From: Hymenobacter daecheongensis DSM 21074
GTDB lineage: Bacteria > Bacteroidota > Bacteroidia > Cytophagales > Hymenobacteraceae
Length of the DNA stretch: 64,000 nt
NCBI RefSeq assembly: GCF_900141805.1
Contig: NZ_FQYN01000007.1
Coordinates: 186,001 to 250,000, forward strand
Direction of reading: 5' to 3'
A program made the translations under genes and the position numbers. The notes below the pieces were generated by a model. It saw nothing but the letters and a program-made list of their open reading frames with translations, made no database searches and was not told the DNA's origin. Every line of letters begins with the position of its first letter. The first letter of the stretch is position 1. Shown here piece after piece: positions 42,315 to 57,848 of this stretch.

Positions 42315-43904
42315 TCAATACCCTTCCCGGTCATACGCGTGCATCAGCACGCCTTTGCGGGTTTTGTCGCGCACTTCGGGGCCTTCCGAAACGCTGTTGC
42401 CGCGGTTGGTGTCATGGTACACGGTTTTCTTGCTGCCGTGCCGTACGCGGGAGGTGTCGGTGAGCTTGTCGGCCGCGGGGCCGCCGAAAATCTCGACCCG
42501 CAGGCCCCGCGCTACCTCACCGCTCACCTCAAATTCGTCCTCGCCATCGAGGCCGTGCAGGGTGAGCAGCTTGGTTTCGGCGTGGCGCAGCAGGCGGCGG
42601 TAGAGCAGCGAGTCGGCCAGCGGCTTTTCGTCGTTGTCAGGCAGGTGATACACGCTAACCAGGGTGGTCGAATCGGTAAGGCGCTGCACCACGAAACGCT
42701 CGGCCGCATCGGTGCCGGCCACCGTGACATGCCGGGCCAGCTGCTGGTAGAAAGTGCGGGCAGCGGCCGGCAGCGCGGCCCGGCGGGCCTGCAGCGTGGC
42801 GGCAGTATAGGCCCCTTCGCGGGCATACACGGGCAGCGGCAGCCGGCGCACCGCCCCCTGAATCACGCCGTCCGTCAGCCGCTGCTGCAGCTCGGTAGCC
42901 AGCTGCTGAAACTGCGCCCCAGTCACCTCCGACAGCCCCCGCTCATCAATGAAACGGGCATTTTTGACCAGCCCGCCGATGTCCTCATACTTGGGCCGGA
43001 AGGTGCGGAACTTGCGCACGCCCCAGCGGCGGCTGACCAGCCACGGAATCAGGCCGTCGTCGAAGCGGTAGAACACCTGGTCGCGGTCTTTGGGGATGGG
43101 GCGGTAGCGCGTGCGGCCCGCCTGCTGGTACACGGCCCACTGCCACTGGCCCTCGTGCCGGTCCCAGTCGCCCAGCCAGATATCGAGCAGGCGGGCGCGG
43201 GCAAAGGCCAGCTGGTCAATCTGGTGCGTGGGCTGCTGGTAGCGGGCCCGCAGCATCTGGTCGCTGTCTACCAGGTCTTCGGCGCTGCCGAAGGCCGGCG
43301 TGAGGTTTTCCTTGCCGTCAAATTTCTCCTCCAGCATCACCACTTTGCCCTGAAACAGGGGTGAGGACGCACCCAGGCCGGTTTCATCGGCGCGCACGTA
43401 GAATGGGCGCGGGTTGGTATGCGGCACGCCGGCCGCCTCGGCCAGTGGCGGCACCACGAAGGCCCCAAACGGGTTGGCCGCGCTGGTAGCATCGCGCACG
43501 ATGTTGAGCAGAAATGTCTTCTGCATCACCTTGGGCAGGGTTTTGTAGGGGTCCTTGTCGAGGGTGCGCAGGGCGTAGGTGCGGCCGTTGGCGCCGTTCA
43601 CCGTCATGCTGGTGCTCTGAAAGCCGCCGCCCATCTTGCCGGGCTGCAGGCCGCCGGGCACGGCCGTACGCAGGTTCAGTACCGGCAGCACTACGGGCGT
43701 GGCCCACACGGCGCGGTAGTGGGGGCCAAAAAACAGGTTCTGCACGGGGCCGCGCACATAGTGCCGGCCCGCCGTCACGCGGGCACTGTCGGCCAGCGGG
43801 CGGCCCGCGGCTTCCGACAGGCGGGCATCAGATTGAAAATAGTGCTGCCGAACGCAGCCGGCACTCAGCACGGAGAGCAGCAGGAGGGGTAAGCGAAGGG
43901 TCAT
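42315..43904 (-). CDS. Lipoprotein of unknown function with GDWDRH motif, paralogue A
   Basis: 529 residues from ATG 43902-43904. Signal MTLRLPLLLLSVLSAGCVRQ with Cys 17 in the lipobox SAGC. Features seen: PVLNLRTAVPGGLQPGKMGG, then ALRTLDKDPYKTLP (Lys 117 region), TNPRPFYVRADE, a central LLDIWLGDWDRHEGQWQWAV (D248-R249-H250) and YRPIPKDRDQVFYRFDDGL (D273, D275). The GDWDRH plus a downstream D resembles the catalytic loop of Fam20/HipA-like atypical kinases. This is my inference only; phosphotransfer has not been shown. Paralogue B is divergent 101 bp away and has lost DRH. Likely outer-membrane anchored. Family unnamed. Confidence 0.75.
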   Translation of the reverse strand: MTLRLPLLLLSVLSAGCVRQHYFQSDARLSEAAGRPLADSARVTAGRHYVRGPVQNLFFGPHYRAVWATPVVLPVLNLRTAVPGGLQPGKMGGGFQSTSMTVNGANGRTYALRTLDKDPYKTLPKVMQKTFLLNIVRDATSAANPFGAFVVPPLAEAAGVPHTNPRPFYVRADETGLGASSPLFQGKVVMLEEKFDGKENLTPAFGSAEDLVDSDQMLRARYQQPTHQIDQLAFARARLLDIWLGDWDRHEGQWQWAVYQQAGRTRYRPIPKDRDQVFYRFDDGLIPWLVSRRWGVRKFRTFRPKYEDIGGLVKNARFIDERGLSEVTGAQFQQLATELQQRLTDGVIQGAVRRLPLPVYAREGAYTAATLQARRAALPAAARTFYQQLARHVTVAGTDAAERFVVQRLTDSTTLVSVYHLPDNDEKPLADSLLYRRLLRHAETKLLTLHGLDGEDEFEVSGEVARGLRVEIFGGPAADKLTDTSRVRHGSKKTVYHDTNRGNSVSEGPEVRDKTRKGVLMHAYDREGY

Positions 43905-44005
43905 TGGGGGCAGAAAAACGCGGCTTGAGTCCTTGAACGCAGCCGGCCGGGAAAAGTGGGCGGCCGGCTGCCCAACGCCGGCCGGCACAACCGCTACTGG
44001 CCGGT

Positions 44006-45688
44006 TTGCGCTATAAGGCAACGCCGGCGCAGCTGCGCGGTCCTTTCAGCCGACTTATTTCCGCATTCGTGCTCTATCCGCTCCTTTTTTCGCGCCCGCG
44101 CTGCGTGGCCGCACTGTGCGCCGGTGGCCTGCTGCTGGTATCCTGCTCGGCCCCGGCCGCGCCACCCGCCATCCGCCCACCCGCCGCCATCGGCCCCGAT
44201 TCGATGGTGCGCGTGGCGGCCGGGCCGCAGTATATGCGCGGGGCGGTGCATCAGTTTTTCTGGGGCAAGCACTACCGCAAGCTGTGGGCCGTGCCGGTGC
44301 AGGCCCCGGTGCTGAACCTGCGTACGGTAGTGCCCGGCGGCCTCACGCCCACCGAGGCCGGCGGCAGCTTCCAGACCAAAAACCTGCGCTTGGTAGACCG
44401 CCGTGGCGTGCAGTTCGTGCTACGCTCCGTGGATAAAGACGCCACCAAAGCCCTGCCCGAGCGCCTGCGCAACGGCCCCATTGGGCGGCTGATGAAGGAC
44501 CAGACCAGCGTAATTAATCCGTACGGGGCCTACATTGTGCCGCATCTGGCCCAGGCGGCCGGCGTGTTTCATACCAATCCGCGGCTAGTGTATGTGGCTG
44601 ATGATCCGGCCCTGGGCGCGTTCCGGAAGGAGTTTGCCAATGCCCTGTATCTGCTGGAGGAGCGCCCCGAGGGCGACCAGAGCGGCGTAAGCAGCTTCGG
44701 CCGCTCGGCCCTGGTGGAAAGCTCGCGCAAGGTGTTCACCAATCTGGCGTTCAACCCCCAGGCCCGCGTGGATGCCCGCCAGTATTTGCGGGCCCGGCTG
44801 TTTGATATGTGGCTCGGCGACTGGAGCCGCCGCGAGGACCAGTGGCGCTGGGCCAGCTTCCGCGGCGCGGGCGGCGCTACCGTGTACCAGGCCATTCCGC
44901 GCGACCGGGACCACGCTTTTTTCAAATTCGACGATGGCCTGCTCACGCGGATTGTGAGCTGGGTGAAATCCAACTACCAGAGCTTCCACGAAAAGATAAA
45001 GCTGCGCGACGTGGAAGGCCTCAACCGCGCCGCCCGCCCCCTGGATAAGTCGCTGCTGGTGTATCTGACGGCCGACGACTTCCGGCAGGTGGCCGACTCA
45101 ATGCGCCTGGGCTTATCGGATAAAGTAATTAAGGAGGCGCTGGCCGTGTGGCCAAAGGAAGTGTATGCGCTGGCCGGGGCCGAGTTTGACCGCAAGCTGC
45201 GGGGCCGCCGCGAGCAGCTGCCCGCCGTGGCCGCCCGCTTCTACCAGCTGCTGGCCCAGGAAATCGAGATTCCCGGCACCGACCAGCCCGAGCGCTTCGT
45301 GCTGGAGCCCGCCGACACGGGGCAGCTGCGGGTGCAGGTGCTGCGCCTGCACGCCGGCCGCCCCGACAGCCTGATCAACCAGCGCACGTTTCTGGTGGGG
45401 CAGACGCGCTCCATCAAGCTGTTTGGCCTGGGCGGCAACGACGTGTTTGAGCTGCGCGGCCTGCCCGACCACCGCTTTGCCGTGGGCATATACGATGGGG
45501 CTGGCCAGGATGTAGTGGCGCTGAAAATGCCCGCTGGCGCGTCAAATCAGCCCACCAACGTGCTGGTGTACGACAGCGGCGACGGCAACACGCTGAAAGT
45601 GGCCAAGCCCATCAAAACCCAGGCCTACGTGCCAGCCGCCACCGAATTCGACGCGGCCGGCTGGCTACTGCGCCACCGGCTGTTCTGA
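44006..45688 (+). CDS. Lipoprotein of unknown function, paralogue B (altered GDWDRH)
   Basis: 560 residues starting at TTG 44006. Lipobox LLLVSCSAPAAPP gives a lipoprotein. It is clearly homologous to the divergent 529-residue paralogue: VLNLRTVVPGGLTPTEAGGS, VLRSVDKDATKALPERL, GVFHTNPRLVYVADDPALG, ARLFDMWLGDWSRREDQWRW and YQAIPRDRDHAFFKFDDGL. At the key position DRH has become S274-R275-R276, while the flanking GDW and EDQW are kept. If the motif is catalytic in paralogue A, this copy may be a pseudo-enzyme. The first 30 residues before the signal are odd, and a later start is possible, but I see no ATG before the hydrophobic segment. Function unknown. Confidence 0.72.
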   Translation: MRYKATPAQLRGPFSRLISAFVLYPLLFSRPRCVAALCAGGLLLVSCSAPAAPPAIRPPAAIGPDSMVRVAAGPQYMRGAVHQFFWGKHYRKLWAVPVQAPVLNLRTVVPGGLTPTEAGGSFQTKNLRLVDRRGVQFVLRSVDKDATKALPERLRNGPIGRLMKDQTSVINPYGAYIVPHLAQAAGVFHTNPRLVYVADDPALGAFRKEFANALYLLEERPEGDQSGVSSFGRSALVESSRKVFTNLAFNPQARVDARQYLRARLFDMWLGDWSRREDQWRWASFRGAGGATVYQAIPRDRDHAFFKFDDGLLTRIVSWVKSNYQSFHEKIKLRDVEGLNRAARPLDKSLLVYLTADDFRQVADSMRLGLSDKVIKEALAVWPKEVYALAGAEFDRKLRGRREQLPAVAARFYQLLAQEIEIPGTDQPERFVLEPADTGQLRVQVLRLHAGRPDSLINQRTFLVGQTRSIKLFGLGGNDVFELRGLPDHRFAVGIYDGAGQDVVALKMPAGASNQPTNVLVYDSGDGNTLKVAKPIKTQAYVPAATEFDAAGWLLRHRLF

Positions 45689-56104: not shown

Positions 56105-57295
56105 ATGCAAAACGACATCAAAACCCTGCGCATCCAGAATTTTAAGTCCATTAAGGACGTGACGATGACGCCCCGCCGCGTGAACCTGATTATCGGGATG
56201 CCGAACGTGGGGAAGAGTAATATTCTGGAGGCGATGAGTTTGTTGGGAGCTGGTCTTTATGACAAGAAAAAATTTATGGATGATGTACTTCGTTATGAGG
56301 TAATTCAAAATCTGTTTTATGACAATGATACTAGTCAACCTGTGATAGTTAATGCATCGACATGTATGGCAATTATAAAAGCAAATGATATATACAGTGA
56401 AAATTATAGAAGTGTGCATATATCCAAAGATTTATTAAATAGAGTTCAGTCTATTGTAGATGTAGAGTATTCGAAAAAAAATCCCGGATTTATGATTCCT
56501 GTAGAAGATGATATTACGCTTATTAATATCATCATTGATCAGGAGAGGTATATATCAGAAATTATAAAGGAGGATAGTATGGAAGGTGGTAAGTCTTTTG
56601 TTAAAACTTTGAATATTTATTCAAATGGTGATTCAAGTCAAGTGGGAAATTTTTATTATACGAATGTTAATATGATGCCAAAGAGTTATAACTATATACG
56701 TGGAGAGTCTCATGATAGTAGATATCAATTTAATTTTTTGAGGCCACCGCATGGATCTAATTTATCAAATGTTGTTCAACGCAACCAAAAATTACGTAAA
56801 GAAGTATCATCCTTATTCAAAGTATATGGCTTAAACCTCGTTCTCCGTGTAAGTGAACGCAAGTTTGAAATACAGAAACAAGTGGACGATCTTGTTTACA
56901 ATTACCCCTATTCCAGCATCGCTGATACCCTCCAACGCATCATCTTCTACTTCGCCGCCATTGAAAGTAACGACGACTCTGTAATCCTGCTAGAAGAGCC
57001 GGAGGCGCACTCGTACCCAATGTATGTGTCGATGCTTGGGAAGCGGATGGTGGAGAGCCGCAACAACCAATTTTTTGTGGCTACGCACAGCCCATACCTA
57101 ATAACAGAAGTATTGGAGCAGATGCTGCCCGATGAGGAGCAGGCGAAGGAGTTGGCCATTTTCGTGGCCTATTATGAGGACTACCAGACCAAAGTGAAGC
57201 AGCTCAGCGACGAGGAAGTGCGGGCCATCCGGGGCGACTCGGTGGACGTGTTCTACAACATGGCCCGCTACATTCCGCGCCCCGCCAATGGCTGA
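56105..57295 (+). CDS. OLD/AAA15-like ATPase of a putative defence cassette
   Basis: 396 residues from ATG 56105. An ABC-type ATPase of the RecF/SMC-like OLD family. Walker A is GMPNVGKS (residues 31-38) after FKSIKDVTM. The Walker B-D region is SVILLEEPEAHSYPMYVSML (E297-E298-P299), with the H-loop FVATHSPYL (His 328). There is no Toprim domain in this chain; the next gene, overlapping by eight bases, may supply it. The middle of the gene is about 30% GC (hand count 56281-56820) while both ends are high GC, so the dimerisation or specificity domain appears to be a foreign replacement. Systems of this layout (ATPase plus Toprim protein, such as PARIS) act against phages. I infer defence but did not verify it. 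Confidence 0.85.
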   Translation: MQNDIKTLRIQNFKSIKDVTMTPRRVNLIIGMPNVGKSNILEAMSLLGAGLYDKKKFMDDVLRYEVIQNLFYDNDTSQPVIVNASTCMAIIKANDIYSENYRSVHISKDLLNRVQSIVDVEYSKKNPGFMIPVEDDITLINIIIDQERYISEIIKEDSMEGGKSFVKTLNIYSNGDSSQVGNFYYTNVNMMPKSYNYIRGESHDSRYQFNFLRPPHGSNLSNVVQRNQKLRKEVSSLFKVYGLNLVLRVSERKFEIQKQVDDLVYNYPYSSIADTLQRIIFYFAAIESNDDSVILLEEPEAHSYPMYVSMLGKRMVESRNNQFFVATHSPYLITEVLEQMLPDEEQAKELAIFVAYYEDYQTKVKQLSDEEVRAIRGDSVDVFYNMARYIPRPANG

Positions 57296-57848
57296 GTACG
57301 CGCTGTTTGTGCCCGAGTGCAACGTGGATACTGCCCTGACGCTGTCATTGGTGGCGTATCGCTATACTTTTGTGAGCCACCGGCAGGGCATCGGGCAGGT
57401 GGCCCGCGTGCTGAAGGAGCAGGGCCCCGCCTCCCAGGCCGGGCGCGTGGTGGTGGGCATGGTCGATAGGGACAAGAAGTTTGCCCAGGCCCCCGAACTG
57501 GCCAAGTTCCGGCCCCTGGCCCGGCCGCGGCGGGGGCAGGAGGAGTTTCATGAGATTCTGCAGCACCCAGAGCTGCCCAACGAGTACCTCATCGTGCTGA
57601 ACCCGGCCTGCGACACCTGGCTGTTTCGAGCCGCCGCTGCCGCCGGCCTCGACTTGGCCGCCCTGGGCCTGCCCGCCGCGCTGCCCGCCTTTATTGATTT
57701 CTGCAAGCAGGAAAATGTGGAGGAGCACAAGCTTATGCGGCTGCTGCTACACGAGATTCAGCGGGCCCAGCCCATTGCCTACCGCGACCTAGCCGACTTT
57801 GTGGCCCAGGTGATGAACTTGAGCCCGGCGCAGCAGCGGCTAACTTGA
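57288..57848 (+). CDS. Toprim-like partner of the OLD-like ATPase
   Basis: 186 residues. The ATG lies within the stop of the ATPase gene (ATGGCTGA), so translation is coupled. Near the start, LFVPECNVDTAL has an acidic residue at the place of the Toprim Glu (E10, with D14 close by). Strand-like VVVGMVDRDKKF then has D60 and D62 in the DxD pattern of the Toprim fold, the nuclease/primase-like domain of OLD and of PARIS AriB. The rest is helical (EEFHEILQHPELPNEYLIVL, DLADFVAQVMNLSPAQQ). I did not run a structure search. High GC, like the ends of the ATPase gene. Role inferred as effector of the cassette; family unnamed. Confidence 0.7.
   Translation: MAEYALFVPECNVDTALTLSLVAYRYTFVSHRQGIGQVARVLKEQGPASQAGRVVVGMVDRDKKFAQAPELAKFRPLARPRRGQEEFHEILQHPELPNEYLIVLNPACDTWLFRAAAAAGLDLAALGLPAALPAFIDFCKQENVEEHKLMRLLLHEIQRAQPIAYRDLADFVAQVMNLSPAQQRLT

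Follow-up and report, generated by a model that had tools for sequence, protein, structure and literature searches.

A divergent pair of Hymenobacter lipoproteins with a predicted kinase-like fold: a putative extracytoplasmic kinase and a candidate pseudokinase partner

Two divergent lipoprotein genes

The window, i.e. the whole stretch of 64,000 nucleotides analysed here, carries two genes arranged head to head. Gene A (42315–43904, minus strand, ATG at 43904) encodes a 529-aa lipoprotein with a predicted kinase-like fold, in which the motifs GDWDRH and PKDRD are intact. Gene B (44006–45688, plus strand) encodes a paralogous lipoprotein of at most 560 aa, a predicted pseudokinase where the first motif reads GDWSRR. 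The start codon of B is uncertain, being either the TTG at 44006 or a later in-frame start, so that the 101 bp between the two starts (43905–44005) are only a minimum. A begins with a signal peptide and the lipobox LSAG-C17 (43854–43904, minus strand) and is probably lipidated; B likewise starts with a signal peptide, and its lipobox cysteine lies in LLVS-C47 (44144–44146, plus strand). Divergent orientation, gap and both lipoboxes agree, in coordinates and in sequence, with the initial annotation of this DNA. The shared intergenic region includes an 11-bp perfect inverted repeat (43939–43949 and 43961–43971, GCAGCCGGCCG / CGGCCGGCTGC), a candidate operator or hairpin. The two genes may be co-regulated. 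In most Hymenobacter the pair is flanked by a topoisomerase IB gene and an exonuclease/UvrC-like gene.

A and B share 38% identity over 479 aa (E 6e-102), far beyond chance, and at the sequence level they are paralogues, as had been proposed; the blocks LNLRT-VPGGL, LDKD/VDKD and IP-DRD pointed out at that time are present in both. A carries GDWDRHEGQWQW, containing D248-R249-H250, and B carries GDWSRREDQWRW, containing S274-R275-R276 (counting from the TTG at 44006), exactly the substitution initially described. The motif reads GDWDRH and not GNxDRH, the form initially quoted for Fam20-like kinases.

Several features of A, all on the minus strand, recall a kinase active site. Residues 83–97 (43614–43658) form a Gly-rich hairpin loop, GGL.....GGGFQ, with invariant G92 and G93, which is a candidate nucleotide-binding loop. 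R113-K117 (43554–43568) end the strand that follows this hairpin. The initial annotation had singled out the Lys near LDKD, K117. This residue is indeed conserved in 99% of 74 homologues. R113, which precedes it by four positions on the same strand, is near-invariant as well, and A thus has two candidates for the equivalent of the β3 Lys. The invariant E192 (43329–43331) lies on a strand at the hinge position. Residues 246–256, DWDRHEGQWQW (43137–43169), would be the equivalent of the catalytic loop, with D248 aligned to the Asp of CotH GNWD, and residues 271–275, PKDRD (43080–43094), that of the metal-binding Asp motif, aligned to CotH PYDYD. In B (plus strand), the catalytic loop D272-W-S274-R-R276-E277 (44819–44836) shows Asp-to-Ser and His-to-Arg changes, and the putative metal-site motif is kept as PRDRD (44897–44911). 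A ends with an all-β domain (residues 392–513, 42366–42731, minus strand), which may bind calcium: the GGxGxD-like turns of this domain in the family resemble RTX repeats (Pfam HemolysinCabind, E 0.03–0.08).

Predicted fold and relation to known kinases

Structures were predicted with confidence by AlphaFold2, at a mean pLDDT of 92.6 and a pTM of 0.92 for A (alignment of 77 rows) and 92.7 and 0.92 for B (69 rows). The model of A starts with the Gly-rich hairpin (86–104), a basic strand (109–114, with R113 and K117) and a helix (131–142, with the invariant D138). These are followed by the hinge-like strand carrying E192 (188–193), a helix (231–244), the DWDRH loop, a hairpin (254–271) and PKDRD, and then by a helical lobe and the β domain. 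In the model, this is the order of elements of an atypical kinase. Both sequence and model place D248, D273/D275, G92-G93, R113/K117, D138 and E192 in the order seen in the protein kinase-like (PKL) fold.

When A was compared to the PDB with Foldseek, CtkA came first (E 7.8e-6, probability 1.00), with further matches to PI4KII-alpha (1.00) and CotH (0.97–0.99), and Rio2, HipA, Fam20 and WaaP among the others listed. Matches of B include HipT, ADCK3, Rio2, CtkA, Fam20C and JAK2 JH2. PI3/4-kinase and CotH proteins are the matches among viral models. The TM-scores are modest, with a best value of 0.55 on the length of the target CtkA, partly because the kinase-like domain is only a part of each protein. 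Kinase-like folds nevertheless top both lists, so that A and B are both predicted to adopt the two-lobed PKL fold; the kinase resemblance on which the initial proposal depended is found in the two models.

Neither A nor B matched a Pfam or NCBIfam family or, by sequence, a solved PDB chain; GcrA (0.015) and metallo-beta-lactamase (0.28) came up in these searches as chance matches and were set aside. No convincing Pfam match was obtained with any of 77 family members. Profiles of CotH and HipA were then built from Bacteroidota genomes and aligned by hhalign with the kinase part of the A family. CotH scored 45.0. None of 60 column-permuted CotH controls exceeded 23.4, and none of eight unrelated families drawn from the same loci exceeded 17.9; HipA scored 27.6, where its null reached no more than 22.3. 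In the alignment with CotH, GDWDRH...YRPIPKDRD falls on GNWD...FVVIPYDYD. CotH phosphorylates proteins, and its Asp228 and Asp251 are essential (PMC7821199). Judged by motif and spacing, and from a profile rather than from the B. subtilis protein itself, D248 would correspond to D228, and D273 or D275 to D251, of B. subtilis CotH.

A and B are thus like CotH (PF08757) in the order and spacing of GxWD ... IPxDxD, in a profile similarity above controls and in their predicted extracytoplasmic function. They differ from it in having DRH..QW where CotH has a D...N motif, and their family is anchored by lipid or fused to a barrel, carries a β domain at the C-terminus and includes an altered paralogue. 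The CotH PF08757 model has no match above its curated cut-off in A, B or the 77 members, and none at all in the genome of the window. As for CtkA/HipA (PF07804), CtkA is the best fold match in the PDB and the HipA profile similarity is weak, above the null, but A and B are predicted extracytoplasmic lipoproteins; the PF07804 cut-off is reached neither by A or B nor by the 77 members, and the HipA_C family has no match in this genome.

The initial annotation had compared A to Fam20-like secreted kinases. Fam20 is among the fold matches, but by sequence the nearest relative identified is CotH and not Fam20C, and A, B and the 77 members show no sequence similarity to the Fam20 Pfam model or to solved chains. 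Fam20C is a secreted kinase whose activator, Fam20A, is a pseudokinase paralogue (PMC7948968). Common to the two systems are the DRH motif, the presence of Fam20C/A among the fold matches and the arrangement, predicted here, of a secreted kinase beside a pseudokinase paralogue; the fold match is only distant, and Fam20A lost a metal-binding Glu where B lost a catalytic-type Asp. A and B may therefore function like CotH or Fam20 but, by family models, are members of neither.

Conservation of the catalytic-type site and its loss in B

The family profile set, gathered partly via the motif, comprises 77 rows (26 A, 17 B and 34 fused proteins described below), and in it position 248 is occupied by Asp in all 26 A rows and in 33 of the 34 fused rows, i.e. 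59 of the 60 non-B rows, and by Ser in 17/17 B rows. An independent set, obtained by plain homology search, has Asp at this position in 92% of 74 homologues, B copies included. The proposal that D248 is catalytic, which frequent replacement of this residue among homologues would have weakened, thus stands. The position of H250 is Arg in 13 of the 17 B rows; G92, G93, R113, K117, D138, E192, D246, D273, R274 and D275 are unchanged throughout the 77.

In the tree, A and B form sister clades (support of 97 for B), which are confined to Hymenobacteraceae, save for one A-like sequence from a Cytophagaceae MAG. Together with the Ser found in all B, this points to a single duplication followed by loss of the Asp in B. 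Twenty further congeneric genomes, selected via their B gene, all carry the divergent pair, A reading GDWDRH and B GDWSRR. By count of rows, B was found in 57/61 congeners. In Pontibacter, A and B lie in tandem and B reads WSRH..NW. Five Hymenobacter loci (L101, L103, L104, L108 and L156) have an extra A-type copy, giving A, A' and B, with DRH intact in all A-type copies. The possibility that A and B are pieces of a broken fused protein was dropped, both being full-length, lipobox-bearing and conserved, in a clade of their own.

Compared to five congeners by the Nei-Gojobori method, dN/dS is about 0.14–0.42 for B and 0.16–0.45 for A, rough values given the high dS. B is under purifying selection and evolves no faster than A, which argues for a maintained protein and not for decay. 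B combines a predicted kinase fold with the fixed loss of a residue essential to catalysis, in a gene under selection. This is the signature of a pseudokinase, and by analogy B would be a maintained one, like Fam20A beside Fam20C. The view of B as the altered partner, put forward in the initial annotation, is strengthened since the Asp-to-Ser change is fixed across an entire clade that stays beside A.

Two points weigh against the reading of A as kinase and B as pseudokinase. Some kinase-fold proteins once labelled pseudokinases perform other transfers, and D246, invariant even in B, could be an alternative base. Alternatively, A and B might use a kinase-like fold for other chemistry, such as AMPylation, glutamylation or a different nucleotidyl or acyl transfer, B being possibly active without D248. 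Retention of D246, D273, D275, K117 and E192 in B without exception, its evolution under constraint and the precedent of AMPylation by SelO (cited in PMC7948968) are consistent with this, but A and the fused proteins retain D-R-H together with D-x-D, the full set that phosphoryl transfer typically shows, and we consider such chemistry quite improbable.

Fused relatives and proposed function

The kinase-like domain was found in 142 of 396 sampled Bacteroidota genomes. It occurs four times in the present genome: in A, in B and in the middle of two proteins of more than 1200 aa. In its commonest architecture (about 1200–1350 aa) it lies between a PF00149 phosphoesterase and an Omp85 barrel; other proteins consist of domain and barrel, with no phosphoesterase (about 860–960 aa), or of the stand-alone form (500–590 aa). 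The C-terminal part of the fused relatives matches PF01103 Omp85 or NF047779 Omp85_fam. In one of the two fused proteins of this genome (L003; G000:C18, match 56263–57684) PF00149 precedes the domain and the C-terminal stretch ends in a barrel-type terminal Phe. In this protein (L003 and L216), both the phosphoesterase and the kinase-like active sites are intact by motif, with a gene for an HD-domain protein with a PycTM C-terminus (HD-PycTM) upstream and the polyphosphate kinase gene PPK1 about 8 kb downstream. A 'Metallo' class of Omp85 proteins is known, in which PF00149 was called a metalloprotease and the kinase-like domain went unmentioned (Heinz and Lithgow 2014, PMC4104836). The fused relatives, like this subfamily, combine PF00149 with an Omp85 barrel; A and B have neither flanking domain. 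No description of the kinase-like domain was found in the open-licence literature.

Of the 54 fused proteins compared, 52 have an intact kinase-like site, whereas about a dozen show degeneration of the metal site in the phosphoesterase, which indicates that the kinase-like site is the more constrained. The second fused protein of this genome (L004, G000:C11) and one from Dyadobacter beijingensis (L161) have lost both the kinase Asp and the phosphoesterase site. These two are sisters in the tree, L004 lies near a PPK1 gene, and their line may consist of full-length pseudoenzymes. A domain that is mostly fused to barrels, and whose site is kept where that of the phosphoesterase degenerates, might not be an enzyme at all but a module for structure or ligand binding, such as an assembly factor or a sensor, once attached to Omp85-type barrels, its site sensing nucleotide or polyphosphate. 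We regard this as very improbable: what is kept is a catalytic set of residues, among them the presumed base D248, for which binding alone would give no reason, and their loss is limited to clade B and a small number of fused proteins.

The neighbourhood of the fused genes was recorded in a first set of 40 loci and in 18 further loci outside this genome. An HD-PycTM gene is present in 23/40 and 15/18, a phytase-like gene in 9/40 and 7/18, and PPK1 in 11/40 (mostly Hymenobacteraceae) and 0/18. In the genome of the window, PPK1 lies within 10 kb of both fused copies. A general linkage to polyphosphate kinase finds no support, since the PPK1 neighbours belong to Hymenobacteraceae and a few MAGs and were absent from the 18 loci sampled elsewhere in the phylum. 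The predicted membrane anchoring of A and B would also suit an active kinase-fold enzyme, with B as partner, whose substrate is an outer-membrane lipid, glycolipid or glycan and not a protein. PI4KII and WaaP among the fold matches point in the same direction, as does the fusion of the relatives to an outer-membrane barrel, with genes for phosphoesterases, phytase-like proteins and, in certain lineages, polyphosphate kinase around them. The closest sequence profile tested is nonetheless that of CotH, a protein phosphorylator (PMC7821199), and we find a lipid or glycan substrate unlikely.

We favour, with a probability of roughly 55%, a new kinase-like family in which A is an extracytoplasmic kinase and B its pseudokinase partner. 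This reading builds on the computed fold class, the conservation pattern, the clade-wide loss in B and the strict pairing of the genes. A and B would represent a stand-alone, lipid-anchored branch of a previously unnamed PKL-fold family in Bacteroidota, whose nearest kin would be CotH and the HipA/CtkA/PI4KII kinases. Located in the envelope, A would be a metal- and nucleotide-dependent phosphotransferase using an ATP-like donor, with D248 as catalytic base, the metal held by D273/D275 and the phosphates by the Gly-rich hairpin and R113/K117; as to its substrate, our guess would be an outer-membrane protein. B would have kept the nucleotide- and metal-type residues and lost the catalytic Asp, and would most likely bind A, or the substrate of A, and so tune the activity of A, as Fam20A does for Fam20C. 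The weakest point of the kinase reading is the supply of ATP outside the inner membrane. To our knowledge, no ATP supply to the periplasm or cell surface has been described. Polyphosphate as donor is a guess worth testing given the PPK1 genes near the fused genes of this genome.

More broadly, Bacteroidota might possess an unrecognised extracytoplasmic phosphorylation system, with phosphoesterase and kinase (eraser and writer) on one Omp85 barrel and, in Hymenobacteraceae, a lipid-anchored kinase under its own pseudokinase, possibly fed by polyphosphate. This extension is tentative, and we rather doubt it. If the kinase reading of the family is right, a large protein class would hold, in a domain for which there is no family model, a kinase domain facing the periplasm or the surface, the Fam20C/Fam20A kinase-pseudokinase pair would have a bacterial counterpart, and the phosphate donor outside the cytoplasm would become a testable question. 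The HD-domain protein with a PycTM (Pycsar effector) C-terminus recurs beside the fused gene phylum-wide (e.g. L130:1682–2920) and may be encoded by a housekeeping gene rather than by a defence gene.
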